DNA of 64,000 nt, taken from Limosilactobacillus caviae. GTDB taxonomy: Bacteria > Bacillota > Bacilli > Lactobacillales > Lactobacillaceae. The stretch is from NCBI RefSeq assembly GCF_014635905.1, contig NZ_BMDS01000002.1:248001-312000 (forward strand), read 5' to 3'. Each line of letters starts with the position of its first letter. The stretch's first letter is position 1. A program made the translations under genes and the position numbers. Shown one piece after another: positions 59,790 to 64,000 of this stretch. The notes under the pieces are model-generated. The model did no database searches. It had not been told where the DNA came from and saw nothing but the letters and a program-made list of their open reading frames with translations.

Positions 59790-60236
59790 TTGTTACTTTG
59801 TCTAACTATTGGAATTATTATAATTTTAACAATTTGTGATCAATTATTAAAATATTGGGTTGCCTCTTCCATTGCCTTAGGAGGAAGTAAAACATTAATT
59901 CCGGGTATTGTTGAACTAACTAATTTACGAAATACCGGTGCAGCTTGGAGCCTGTTTGAAGGACAGCAGGTTTTCTTTACGATTGTCACGATTGTAGCAA
60001 TTATTGTTATTAGCTATTTTATTTGGAAGTATCGAAAAAATGGTGCGATGCTAACAGGTTTGGCTTTAATCATGGCGGGAACGATTGGTAACTTTATCGA
60101 TCGTCTTGTACATGGGTACGTAGTTGACATGTTTGAGACAATTTTTATTAATTTTCCTATTTTTAATATTGCGGATATGTGCCTAACACTTGGAGTTATT
60201 TGGCTGATAATTTGTATTTTGAGGGAGAAGGACTGA
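59790..60236 (+). CDS. lspA: Lipoprotein signal peptidase
   Basis: A 148-residue type II signal peptidase with four membrane helices. LTNLRNTGAAWSLFEGQ and GTIGNFIDRLVHGYVVDMFE carry the first catalytic Asp region, and FNIADMCLTLGV the second. It cleaves prolipoproteins at the membrane. The start codon is TTG 59790 behind GGGGGAAC. rluD follows after one base. Confidence 0.95.
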   Translation: MLLCLTIGIIIILTICDQLLKYWVASSIALGGSKTLIPGIVELTNLRNTGAAWSLFEGQQVFFTIVTIVAIIVISYFIWKYRKNGAMLTGLALIMAGTIGNFIDRLVHGYVVDMFETIFINFPIFNIADMCLTLGVIWLIICILREKD

Positions 60237-60237
60237 A

Positions 60238-61149
60238 ATGTCAGAACAACTAGAATTAGTGATTGATGACAAAATGACTGGTCGTATTGATAAAGAGTTG
60301 GGGCATCATTTTGATCAATTTTCACGGTCACAGCTTCAACACTGGATAGAAGATGGTCATGTATTAGTTAATGGTAAGCAAGTAAAACCTAAATATAAAT
60401 TATTAGTTGGTGATCAGGTAAAAATAATCCCAGAAGAACCGCAGAAGATTGACCTTGCTCCGGAAAATATTCCGCTTGACATTGTATATGAAGATGATGA
60501 TGTAATTGTTGTTAACAAACCTCAGGGAATGGTTGTCCATCCTGCACCTGGACATCCAGATCACACCTTAGTTAATGCCTTATTATTTCATTCACCGCTA
60601 TCAACAATTAATGGTGAATTTCGCCCAGGAATTGTTCATCGAATTGATAAGGATACTTCGGGCCTGTTAATGGTTGCTAAAAATGATATGGCACATCGGT
60701 CATTAACAGCACAATTAAAGGCTAAAACAAATAAACGTGAATATGTTGCGTTAGTTCATGGCGTAATTAAAGAAGATAAGGGAACAATTGATGCTCCGTT
60801 AGGTCGATCCTTAAAAGACCGTAAAAAGCAGGCTGTTGTTTTAGATGGGCGACATGCTATTACCCATTTTAAAGTATTAGAACGATTTAAAAATTATACA
60901 CTTGTAGCTTGTCGATTAGAGACAGGCCGAACGCATCAGATTAGGGTACACATGAAATATATTGGTCACCCATTGGCTGGCGATCCTTTGTATGGACCAC
61001 GGAAAACCTTGCCAGGTAATGGTCAGTATCTCCATGCTCGTTTACTTGGATTTAAGCACCCGCGAACGGGAAAAGAAATGGTTTTTACTGCACCATTGCC
61101 ATCGTACTTTACAGCAATGCTTGAACATTTGCGTAAGACAGACCAATAA
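60238..61149 (+). CDS. rluD: RluD-type 23S rRNA pseudouridine synthase
   Basis: A 303-residue enzyme. An N-terminal S4 domain (GRIDKELGHHFDQFSRSQLQHWIEDGHVLVNGK) precedes the catalytic domain with HRIDKDTSGLLMVAKN (catalytic Asp) and CRLETGRTHQIRVHMKYIGHPLAGDPLYG. It converts uridines in 23S rRNA. It forms an operon with ebsA and lspA. In many lactobacilli pyr genes follow here; in this genome carA follows after 78 bases without pyrR, pyrB or pyrC. Confidence 0.94.
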   Translation: MSEQLELVIDDKMTGRIDKELGHHFDQFSRSQLQHWIEDGHVLVNGKQVKPKYKLLVGDQVKIIPEEPQKIDLAPENIPLDIVYEDDDVIVVNKPQGMVVHPAPGHPDHTLVNALLFHSPLSTINGEFRPGIVHRIDKDTSGLLMVAKNDMAHRSLTAQLKAKTNKREYVALVHGVIKEDKGTIDAPLGRSLKDRKKQAVVLDGRHAITHFKVLERFKNYTLVACRLETGRTHQIRVHMKYIGHPLAGDPLYGPRKTLPGNGQYLHARLLGFKHPRTGKEMVFTAPLPSYFTAMLEHLRKTDQ

Positions 61150-61227: not shown

Positions 61228-62310
61228 GTGGCAGCACGATACCTAATATTTGAAGATGGTTCAATTTTTGCAGGAGAAGGCTTTGGATCTCCTGCGGTTA
61301 CTTTTGGTGAAGTTGTGTTTAACACTAGCATGACTGGCTATCAAGAGATTATTACTAATCAAGTTTATAATAATCAAATTGTCGTTTTCACCCAGCCTAA
61401 TATCGGTAGCTATGGAATTCAGCGAAACATTTATGAATCTATTGTTCCCACGATTAAAGGAATTATTATTCGCTCTATATCAGATGCGGCTAATGACAAC
61501 GATCGTCAATTAACTTTGGATAAATATCTTCAGCAAATGAATATTCCGGGAATTACTAATATTGATACCCGGGCGGTCGTTCATAAATTGCGAAAGGCTG
61601 GAAGACCTTTGAAAGGGAGCATTGTACCTGTTCCTGATGATCATGCATTTGACCAGCTACATGCAACCGTACTAACTAATCAACAAGTTGCTCAAGTATC
61701 AACCCCTAAGCCATATCCTAATCCAGGAACGGGGTTAAGTGTTGTTGTAATTGATTTTGGATTGAAGCATGGAATCCTTCGTGAATTAAGTCGCCGTAAA
61801 TGTAACATTACCGTATTACCTTATACCGCTACTGCCGAAGAAATTTTACGTTTAGATCCAGATGGGGTGGTCCTATCCAGTGGGCCAGGTAATCCTCAGA
61901 ATGTACGAAAATCTGTCTTGGAAATGATTCAGACAGTCCAAACCAAAGTACCTTTGTTTGCAATTGGATTAGGGCACGAACTATTTGGGATTGCTAACGG
62001 TGCAAATGTGCAACAAATTCCCGTAGAACATCATGGAATGAACCATCCTATTCATGAAATTATTACTGATCATGTTGTATATGCTACTCAGGCAGAGGGT
62101 TATACTATCGCTCGGAATTCTGTTGACCGTTCTCAGCTATTCATTACGTATGTTGATATGATTGATGATAGTGTTCAAGGGCTTCGTCATCGTCGCTATC
62201 CCGCATTTTCTGTTCAATTTTTCCCTGATGGTGCGCCGGGACCGGATGAAACAGATGGTTTATTTGACGAATTTGTCGATACGATGAATAGAAGGGAGGC
62301 TCGTCACTAG
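61228..62310 (+). CDS. carA: CarA-like carbamoyl phosphate synthase small subunit with degenerate glutaminase site
   Basis: A 360-residue CarA. The N-terminal small-chain domain is well kept (FNTSMTGYQEIITNQVYNNQ, QPNIGSYGIQ). The C-terminal glutamine amidotransferase fold is recognisable (VVIDFGLKHGILREL, LSSGPGNPQ), but the catalytic triad is gone. The nucleophile Cys of ICLGHQ is Gly247 (AIGLGHELFG), and the His and Glu of GHPEASPGP are Phe332 and Asp334 (QFFPDGAPGP). It cannot release ammonia from glutamine in the normal way. No pyrR-binding leader is seen. The start GTG 61228 has AGGAGAG upstream; carB overlaps by one base. Confidence 0.88.
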   Translation: MAARYLIFEDGSIFAGEGFGSPAVTFGEVVFNTSMTGYQEIITNQVYNNQIVVFTQPNIGSYGIQRNIYESIVPTIKGIIIRSISDAANDNDRQLTLDKYLQQMNIPGITNIDTRAVVHKLRKAGRPLKGSIVPVPDDHAFDQLHATVLTNQQVAQVSTPKPYPNPGTGLSVVVIDFGLKHGILRELSRRKCNITVLPYTATAEEILRLDPDGVVLSSGPGNPQNVRKSVLEMIQTVQTKVPLFAIGLGHELFGIANGANVQQIPVEHHGMNHPIHEIITDHVVYATQAEGYTIARNSVDRSQLFITYVDMIDDSVQGLRHRRYPAFSVQFFPDGAPGPDETDGLFDEFVDTMNRREARH

Positions 62311-64000
62311 TGCAAAATTTAAAGTCTGTATTAATTATTGGGGCTGGAGCAAATGATGTTCAGCACGGGGATGAGCTTGATTCGGCTATCTATCAAGTCT
62401 CACAAGTCTTTAAACAAATGAAGATTAAAACAATTCTCGTTGATGATAACCCGTTTTCAGTAAGTTTAGAAAAAGTGGATCATGGATGCATTGTGCCGTT
62501 AAAGGTTGAGAGTCTTGTAGATATCATTAATAAGTTCCACCCTGATGCAATTTTACCTACTTTAGGGAATCGACAAGCATTTGAGCTTACACAGGAACTG
62601 TTAGAAAAAGGAATTATTAGAAAAGAAAACATTCAACTATTGGGTGTTCCTGAAGCCACCGTTCGCCAGGTTAATAGTGCGGTTCTTCTTGAACGGACCC
62701 TTCGTCAAATGGAAGCACCGGTCAAAAAGATTATTACTGTTAACAACTATCAAGAAGCGCTTGATGAAGCTACTAAATTAGGCTATCCGGTCATTATTCG
62801 GTCGGTATTGCCGAAAAGCAGCAGCACCCGGAAAATTGTTCATGACCGTAGTGAATTAGCTGATGCGGTAAAACAATGTTTAAGTCAATCAAGGGCTGAG
62901 CAGGTTGTTGTTCAGCAAAGTTTAGCTGGATATAAGGAAATTGAAGTTGTCGTTCAGCGGGATAGCTCGGGGACAATGATGATGCTATCGATGATTGAGG
63001 ATATGGACCCGATTGGTATCCATGCTGGTGATTCAATTGCTTTTAATCCAGTTCAAACACTTCTGGACCGTCAAATCCAAGACATCCGTGATACTGCATT
63101 TGCTATTACCCGCAAGCTGCGGATTGTAGGGACAAATCACATTCAGTTTGCACTTGATACCAATAGTGACCGCTTTTATGTCATTAAAAGCAGTCCGTAT
63201 TTTGATCGCATCACTGCTTTTGCTTCACAATCAACGGGTTATCCAATTGCACAGGTAACAGCACAATTATATGCAGGTAAGCGCCTTCGCGATATTGATT
63301 TAGGCGAGAATTATATTCATCATGCAGCATTGGTTGAGCCAACAATGGATCATATTGCTGCCCGTGTTCCGGTTTGGGGGTTTAGTGAATTACCTAAAGC
63401 AAGCCGATTGCTGGGGACAGAAAAGCGTTCAGTTGGGACAGTGTTTGGTGTTGGGCGAAGTACAATTGAAGCACTTTTTAAGGCGATTGAATCACGTTAT
63501 AACGAACCTGCTGATTTCCATTTGGCAGCTCAAAAACAATTGACAGATGATCAGTTAGTTGCAAAAATTGTTCATCCAGAAGCTGGCCGGCTCTTTGTAT
63601 TAATCGAAGCAATGCAACGCGGATACTCAATTAGTGAGCTATCAGAGATGACAAAGATTGATCCCTTTTATTTTGATCAAATTGATAAGATGCGCTCATT
63701 AATTCAGGAAATTGCTAGCCATCCTAATAAAGAACCATTCTTACAAAAGGCTAAAAGCTATGGACTGAGTAACCAGCTCATTGCCAGGTTATGGGAAACT
63801 ACTCCTGAGCAGATTTATCAAATGAGCCTAGATCATCAATTAATGACAAAATATAAAGAAATTGAACCATCTGCGGGGGAATTTGATCAGCATACTAATA
63901 GTTTCTATTCTGCTTATGAGGAAGAAAATGAGATTGAACGAACTCCCCAACCAAGTGCACTTGTTGTTGGAACAGGGGGATTACGATTAGGTCTAAGCAA
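62310..64000 (+). CDS. carB: CarB-like carbamoyl phosphate synthase large subunit, degenerate, cut by the window end
   Basis: Open from GTG 62310 (its G is the last base of the carA stop; GGGAGG ten bases upstream) to the end, 563 codons. Much of the fold is kept (PDAILPTLGNRQAFELTQEL, GIHAGDSIAFNPVQTL, STGYPIAQVTAQL). However, the ATP-grasp site is eroded. GAGPIVIGQ is GAGANDVQHG. The Gly-rich loop after IIRPS is SVLPKSSSTRK (165-175). The metal-binding E-x-N-x-R (IEMNPRVSR) is IKSSPYFDR (292-300). The start of the second half (VVGTGGLRLGLSK) is also altered from GGGPxRIGQG. There is no stop or frameshift, so it is held as a gene but is probably not a normal synthetase. Confidence 0.85.
   Translation, partial: MQNLKSVLIIGAGANDVQHGDELDSAIYQVSQVFKQMKIKTILVDDNPFSVSLEKVDHGCIVPLKVESLVDIINKFHPDAILPTLGNRQAFELTQELLEKGIIRKENIQLLGVPEATVRQVNSAVLLERTLRQMEAPVKKIITVNNYQEALDEATKLGYPVIIRSVLPKSSSTRKIVHDRSELADAVKQCLSQSRAEQVVVQQSLAGYKEIEVVVQRDSSGTMMMLSMIEDMDPIGIHAGDSIAFNPVQTLLDRQIQDIRDTAFAITRKLRIVGTNHIQFALDTNSDRFYVIKSSPYFDRITAFASQSTGYPIAQVTAQLYAGKRLRDIDLGENYIHHAALVEPTMDHIAARVPVWGFSELPKASRLLGTEKRSVGTVFGVGRSTIEALFKAIESRYNEPADFHLAAQKQLTDDQLVAKIVHPEAGRLFVLIEAMQRGYSISELSEMTKIDPFYFDQIDKMRSLIQEIASHPNKEPFLQKAKSYGLSNQLIARLWETTPEQIYQMSLDHQLMTKYKEIEPSAGEFDQHTNSFYSAYEEENEIERTPQPSALVVGTGGLRLGLS

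Follow-up and report, generated by a model that had tools for sequence, protein, structure and literature searches.

What keeps an intact pair of carbamoyl-phosphate synthetase (CPS) genes in a bacterial genome once the catalytic residues of both subunits are gone? The question is raised by two genes, here called CarA' and CarB', at the end of a 64,000-nucleotide stretch of Limosilactobacillus caviae DNA (contig NZ_BMDS01000002.1, positions 248,001 to 312,000; the window). The pair is old, keeps the CPS fold and has lost both the glutaminase chemistry and the sites for adenosine triphosphate (ATP), and it is almost certainly a pseudoenzyme maintained by selection. CarA', a CPS small subunit without catalytic residues (61228..62310, 360 aa; all features described here lie on the forward strand), starts with GTG preceded by AGGAG. 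The GTG start of CarB', the non-catalytic large subunit, lies at 62310 and overlaps the TAG of CarA' by one base. The window holds the first 563 of its 824 residues (62310..63998); beyond the window edge, where a first-pass annotation of the sequence had to stop, the frame runs on for 784 bases, to L007:5784, and ends without an internal stop, at 824 residues against 1065 in the canonical copy of the same genome. The coordinates and reading frames given in that annotation are correct.

The substitutions that it listed were likewise verified in the translations. In CarA', the Cys-His-Glu glutaminase triad reads Gly, Phe and Asp: Gly247 (codon 61966..61968) replaces the catalytic Cys (E. coli Cys269), and Phe332-Pro-Asp334 (62221..62229) replaces His-Pro-Glu/Asp (E. 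coli His353 and Glu355). Residue 251 (61978..61980) is Glu, where canonical copies have Gln (E. coli Gln273). In CarB', SVLPKSSSTRK (residues 165-175; 62802..62834) replaces the Gly-rich ATP loop, and K293-x-S295-x-Y297 (63186..63200) replaces the metal site Glu299-x-Asn301-x-Arg303. Neither ATP-grasp site is complete, the first reading K-x-S-x-Y and the second being truncated. His238 (63021..63023) is retained and corresponds to E. coli His243, which we take to serve bicarbonate phosphorylation in the E. coli enzyme.

The architecture of a CPS pair is nevertheless recognizable from domains, curated models and the gene overlap. Pfam matched CPSase domains D1, D2 and D3 in CarB', including the oligomerisation domain (PF02787, E 1e-18), and gave no match to the MGS domain, the allosteric domain being absent; the alignment shows that the greater part of the second ATP-grasp is missing too. 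CarA' passes the curated model TIGR01368 (356 bits against a cut-off of 307), while CarB' falls below TIGR01369 (501 against 1027). An AlphaFold model of the L. reuteri CarB' orthologue (predicted local distance difference test score, pLDDT, 88.8; predicted template-modelling score, pTM, 0.90) aligned to E. coli CarB with a template-modelling (TM) score of 0.88, normalized to query length, and an AF2 model of CarA', itself only moderate (pLDDT 77.9, pTM 0.57), gave 0.91 to E. coli CarA. Codon use is normal, as first noted: synonymous usage correlated with that of the 13 other open reading frames (ORFs) of the window at r 0.78 for CarA' and 0.85 for CarB', compared with 0.77 for the neighbouring gene rluD and -0.12 for CarA' read one base out of frame. 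Rfam scans gave no match at the site of the pair.

Selection was assessed within the genus. The ratio of nonsynonymous to synonymous substitution rates (dN/dS; pairwise Nei-Gojobori, 16 hand-chosen pairs of related genomes, many with dS >1 and infinite-dS pairs disregarded) was 0.002-0.067 for CarA' and 0.015-0.098 for CarB', the range of their neighbours rluD (0-0.079) and rqcH (0.013-0.058). Of 33 genus genomes, 31 have a full-length CarB'; in one of the remaining two the match is cut off by a contig end, and in the second the gene is broken. Catalytic residues are thus lost from intact genes under purifying selection. The first-pass annotation had offered two alternatives, selection for another role and very recent pseudogenisation with another carAB copy supplying the activity. 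Wide conservation and a dN/dS of 0.002-0.098 bear out the first and refute the second. A canonical copy does exist in L. caviae. In 13 of the 31 genus genomes that have full CarB', however, no canonical CarB was matched (E 1e-10), and 8 of these 13 are at least 95% complete; a catalytic partner is therefore not required by the pair. The loss of catalytic residues and the broken CarB' of Limosilactobacillus equigenerosi are what one would cite for a recent pseudogene pair or a sequencing error, an explanation we consider scarcely credible. Matching substitutions occur in the genomes of other species, which rules out sequencing error, and recent decay was rejected on the dN/dS values, the retention in 31 of 33 genus genomes and the occurrence of a non-canonical pair in 33 of 40 genera of the family; plain decay, which the earlier annotation had named as an outcome that would overturn its reading, is contradicted by the same data.

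Two of these genus genomes call for comment in their own right. In L. equigenerosi (G028; L067/L221), CarB' is broken into several frames and CarA' is intact, while the canonical CarB and PyrB are also broken or partial, a possible case of natural loss. The one-contig genome G017:C1 (L012, L078, L132), counted among the 31, looks like concatenated coding sequences: rqcH, CarB', CarA', rluD and lspA follow one another directly on a single strand, in an unnatural order.

The source genome (G000) carries the second, canonical carAB that the first-pass annotation had proposed to look for. It lies on a separate contig with its motifs intact and is 44% (CarA) and 37% (CarB) identical to the dead pair. 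The pyr operon, pyrB-C-D-F-E, occupies a further contig, lacks carAB and has the sole PyrR box found in this genome; the PyrR gene is elsewhere and adjoins purA. The term paralogue, first proposed for the dead pair, needs a nuance, since by position the pair is the pyrAA-pyrAB of the ancestral pyr-operon site.

The CarA loci of one genome from each of 40 Lactobacillaceae genera were surveyed. A non-canonical pair was found in 33, flanked by rluD in 31, pyrR in 27 and rqcH in 22 of the representatives (some loci are cut). In five genera (g22, g31, g35, g86 and g93), a canonical pyr CarA-CarB stands behind rluD and pyrR. In the remaining two no dead CarA was found and the site was not located: g84 gave no CarA match and g92 has two canonical copies. 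The catalytic Cys is Gly in 32 of the 33 representatives, the exception being g95, which keeps Cys, has Leu for His and carries a degenerate CarB. Eight of the 33 (g95 included) have a degenerate CarB of full length (1054-1067 aa). Only one representative (g88) has an unaltered first Glu-x-Asn-x-Arg set, and none has the second. Three loci appear intermediate: L112 (g88), whose CarB keeps the first ATP site and not the second; L096 (g85, L. selangorensis), with Ala for both metal Glu residues; and L091 (g95), with the CarA Cys kept and the His lost. From full-length dead to trimmed dead forms, the copies make up a series showing an enzyme becoming a non-enzyme.

Wider searches placed the pair within the family. 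At E 1e-140, a cut-off that misses diverged copies, CarB' was found in 32 of 395 genomes of the order, all from the window's family (10 of 80 genera); a CarA' search at E 1e-108, with matches in 396 family genomes, did not separate dead from canonical copies and does not enter the counts. The CarA' signature pattern, run against the genomes of 84,980 species, matched at least 119 contigs, all Lactobacillaceae by title. Among the matches listed are Limosi-, Levi-, Lenti-, Secundi-, Furfuri-, Pauci-, Api- and Lactiplantibacillus, Pediococcus, Leuconostoc, Weissella, Fructobacillus, Convivina and some entries listed as Lactobacillus, and in 109 of these 119 CarB' adjoins CarA' (in nine the locus ends too early, and in one the genes are unusually ordered). 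A restriction to heterofermenters was considered and rejected, since the pair is present in Lactiplantibacillus and Pediococcus, which are not obligate heterofermenters.

The same replacements recur in relatives, as the first-pass annotation had suggested checking. Counts of the GLGHELF motif in alignment A2 and in the 119 named loci would be circular, since this motif served to find them, and we used instead 38 CarA' rows not chosen by motif. In these, the Cys position is Gly in 38/38, the Gln273 position Glu in 36/38 and the His position F, S, L or N in 38/38. For CarB', we examined 41 rows from named loci among the matches listed, picked by the CarA motif and thus independently of their CarB sequence. 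All 41 have K or R at the Glu299 position, and the Arg303 position is Y in 37 (Y or F in 39); Glu215 is kept in 38, Gly241 and His243 in 41, and the Gly loop is variable. The Glu208 and Glu215 labels assigned in the divergent loci disagree with those of these 41 rows and were disregarded. Among all named loci listed, the Glu299 position reads K in 82, R in 12 and A in 1 of the 95 rows with a residue, and the His243 position is H in 101/101. On the sequences compared, the Glu299-to-Lys swap marks the main dead group and not every dead copy.

How often catalysis was lost was addressed with a quick CarA tree, from which 22 loci were left out by hand (near-duplicates, the artificial assembly and one broken locus) and which included 13 outgroup rows and three of the seven further genus loci L152-L158. 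Thirty-eight dead rows formed a starred clade, with L107 beside it; ten formed a second group, and dead L104 was placed among canonical rows (three changes in all). A single clade of all 50 dead rows was not rejected and scored higher, with long branches in play. These trees are compatible with one loss or with several within Lactobacillaceae.

A second family of the same order, f2, provided a further case. The outgroup CarA L151 (G041, genus g10) has Gly, Asn and Asp at the triad positions, while the triad is present in the other 12 outgroup rows; L151 had been counted among the canonical rows in the tree, the single-clade test and the residue tally, which explains the single Gly (G1) among the canonical rows of the tally. 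In its partner CarB (1066 aa), the Gly loop and both metal sites are gone, but VGIHTGDS, the His243 motif, is kept. Both dead subunits pass the curated cut-offs (440 against 307 and 1221 against 1027 bits), and they sit in an otherwise complete pyr operon, rluD-pyrR-pyrB-pyrC-CarA'-CarB'-pyrD-pyrF-pyrE-rqcH. CarA matches (E 1e-50) were found in 14 of 18 f2 genomes, one each. In g10, CarA is dead in four of five genomes (G041, G080, G112 and G174; L287, L288-L290 and L300), with Gly for Cys, Asn or Gln for His and no other CarA match; the fifth has no CarA match at this threshold. The ten CarAs from other f2 genera keep Cys and His. Among three of the g10 dead CarAs, dN/dS was 0.055-0.070 (3 pairs). 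In the tree, L151 falls with two canonical outgroup rows, from its own family and from another (support 87), and the losses in f2 and in Lactobacillaceae are therefore very likely independent. Catalysis has thus probably disappeared from CPS on at least two occasions, the pair staying under selection each time.

What, then, is the pair selected for? We favour, at a probability of roughly 0.38, a regulatory or sensor (adaptor) role tied to PyrR and pyrimidines, perhaps in the control of pyrimidine or inorganic-carbon supply; before the second family was found the figure was 0.35. Under this proposal, CPS would have had an older non-catalytic role in pyrimidine control that outlived its chemistry. 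CarA'B' would still assemble as a CPS-like complex, and a small anion may bind near the retained His243-equivalent pocket, where Lys or Arg replaces the metal-binding Glu in the main group. The bound state would be passed to pyrimidine regulation, probably via PyrR, whose gene adjoins the pair in most genera. The candidate ligand we would put forward is bicarbonate, although we regard this specific choice as doubtful. More speculative again is the fullest version, in which lactic acid bacteria repeatedly strip CPS of catalysis and keep the complex as a bicarbonate or carbon dioxide (CO2) sensor signalling via the adjoining PyrR, inorganic carbon being read by the pocket in which bicarbonate was formerly phosphorylated; if true, it would account for the dependence of lactobacillus growth on CO2 and bring to light a regulatory function of CPS that is older than its loss of catalysis and has been hidden. 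The step from gene neighbourhood to function is one that we infer.

A sensor or regulatory role is preferred to a metabolic one because the pair outlives de novo synthesis in some genomes and because it stands in a pyr operon in the second family. Canonical CarA was unmatched (E 1e-50) in 10 of the 33 genus representatives with a dead pair, and 7 of these 10 lack an aspartate transcarbamoylase (ATCase) over the cut-off. In G433 and G434, no ATCase or ornithine transcarbamoylase (OTC) matched at E 1e-30 and no candidate appeared at first look; the pair is therefore kept in some genomes where de novo synthesis cannot start. One of these, Furfurilactobacillus siliginis (G433), retains the pair and PyrR in the absence of any match to canonical CarA, to ATCase or to OTC; a single PyrR box was found in its genome, upstream of an NCS2 permease (best match uracil permease). 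Of three Furfurilactobacillus boxes, the two examined are both followed by an NCS2 permease whose best match, falling under the cut-off of that model, is uracil permease, and in one Levilactobacillus and one g21 genome the box is followed by a short ORF and then an NCS1-type permease. The two genera in which no dead pair was seen also lack an ordinary PyrR, in a small sample: PyrR was unmatched in three g92 genomes, and the three g84 genomes gave nothing closer than a 41-42% relative.

The gene neighbourhood includes pyrR in many loci. Among the matches listed, 64 of the 93 named loci showing rluD carry a pyrR ORF. In each of the four Lactiplantibacillus genomes examined, one of two pyrR genes adjoins the dead pair. 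The second is next to pyrB and canonical carA in the single genome in which its surroundings were inspected, and a PyrR box accompanies it in G243, G262 and G306. In L. plantarum, pyrR1 presumably heads the pyr operon, and a 2006 J Bacteriol study of pyrR2 reportedly described the mutant as high-CO2-requiring. PMC7911632 gives the two genes as lp_2704 (pyrR1) and lp_1782 (pyrR2), and the passages of PMC3582564 on these proteins describe PyrR1 and PyrR2 as responding to pyrimidine and inorganic carbon. By elimination, the pyrR beside the dead pair in Lactiplantibacillus would be PyrR2; those passages on PyrR2 do not mention a dead CPS pair.

Several observations weigh against this role. The assignment of the pyrR beside the dead pair as PyrR2 was made by elimination in congeners and not from the L. 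plantarum strain itself. Among the matches listed, pyrR is at the site in 0/20 Limosilactobacillus and 0/4 Paucilactobacillus loci with rluD, and PyrR linkage is therefore not obligatory; the absence of pyrR noted in the first-pass annotation stands for these two genera, while most other genera seen have the gene beside the pair. With a consensus pattern and up to 2 mismatches, no PyrR box was found in L039-L065; none was found at the window locus either, and in 22 genomes, 15 of which have one box each, none is at the dead locus. A PyrR attenuator on the dead operon was accordingly discarded, no box having been found in the main group; boxes do occur upstream of three divergent dead loci (L104, L120 and L129). 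Nor is the putative anion site uniform: among the representatives of the 33 genera, the residue aligned with Glu299 is K in 20, R in 2, E in 5, A in 2, S in 2, D in 1 and G in 1, so that Lys/Arg is not universal, and among 13 divergent loci His243 is kept in 9 and replaced by Asn in 4. Finally, F. siliginis is without known users of carbamoyl phosphate, which argues against a sensor of that compound.

Other roles must be set against this one. The pair could moonlight outside pyrimidine metabolism, for example as an RNA- or translation-linked scaffold, with an ancestral second function split from catalysis. We think this unlikely, though it deserves to be kept in mind: it would account for retention in G433 and G434, from two genera, where canonical CarA, ATCase and OTC are all unmatched, and for the position of the pair closely behind rluD in Limosilactobacillus, but the dead pair remains in a pyr operon in the second family. 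The rluD/rqcH neighbourhood is no evidence for it, because both genes also flank canonical pyr operons (L087, L093). Less likely than moonlighting is a neofunctionalised enzyme, a new ligase or amidase whose remodelled sites catalyse a different reaction. Conserved replacements in the main group (E299K/R 41/41, R303Y/F 39/41, C269G 38/38, Q273E 36/38) are what such an enzyme would show; however, the first-site Gly loop and metal ligands are lost, most of the second ATP-grasp is missing, no nucleophile takes the place of Cys, and the dead copies of other groups carry different replacements.

Three further readings fare worse. A scaffold for PyrB and PyrC, with carbamoyl phosphate supplied from elsewhere, would suit G041, where the dead pair lies beside pyrB and pyrC and no other CarA matched, and PyrB is over the cut-off in 7 of the 8 well-completed genus genomes without canonical CarB; since ATCase is under the cut-off in 7 of the 10 dead-only genus representatives, we consider a scaffold improbable. 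Even more improbable is a regulatory subunit that joins canonical CarAB in mixed complexes to tune its activity: the oligomerisation domain is kept and L. caviae has both copies, yet canonical CarB was not found in 13/31 genus genomes with full CarB', nor canonical CarA in 10/33 representatives. As the sole role, partnership with canonical CPS is ruled out by the genomes in which no canonical CPS was found. Some genomes, in the genus and in g10, bear PyrB with no canonical CPS found, as would be expected if the pair were still an active CPS through unusual chemistry. This we judge very improbable: the ligands of both ATP sites are lost or missing, the pair persists in G433 and G434, where neither ATCase nor OTC was matched, and OTC-like proteins could, in many relatives, supply carbamoyl phosphate by arginine breakdown.

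Compared with known systems, CarA'B' shares gene order, fold and the site by rluD and pyrR with the pyr-operon CPS PyrAA-PyrAB (TIGR01368/TIGR01369), and differs in having no Cys, His or metal sites, no allosteric domain and only a remnant of the second ATP-grasp. Mammalian CPS I has a small-subunit-like part without the catalytic Cys, is fed by ammonia and keeps both ATP-grasp halves; the Cys loss is shared with CarA', whereas CarB' has lost both ATP sites. Yeast Ura2 retains by selection an inactive dihydroorotase domain, a dead pyrimidine module that is fused, in contrast to the stand-alone dead CPS complex described here. No description of a dead two-subunit CPS pseudoenzyme was found in the open-licence literature searched. 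Such a pseudoenzyme is present in 33 of 40 sampled genera of a family of central economic importance, and a second family has one too. Because curated models accept dead CarA' (and both subunits in f2), genomes are likely annotated with a CPS that they do not possess, and prototrophy for pyrimidines and arginine would then be wrongly predicted. If the pair does sense inorganic carbon or pyrimidines, it would offer a handle on the CO2 dependence of lactobacilli.

The remaining observations concern neighbouring genes and individual loci. Upstream of the pair in the window lie lspA (59790..60236) and the conserved rluD (60238..61149), which ends 78 bp before CarA'. In two Limosilactobacillus loci, L066 and L071 (G030 and G018), pyrB and its PyrR box stand downstream of CarB'. 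L068 (G008:C1:798221-802373) is an extra CarAB, very divergent yet canonical, and forms the longest branch in the CarA tree. In L208 (Weissella confusa FS54), the order of CarA', pyrR and rluD is opposite to that of other loci, through rearrangement or an assembly artefact. Tetrahydrofolate riboswitches were seen near degV, close to the dead-pair locus, in other genera (L041, L042, L050 and L054).

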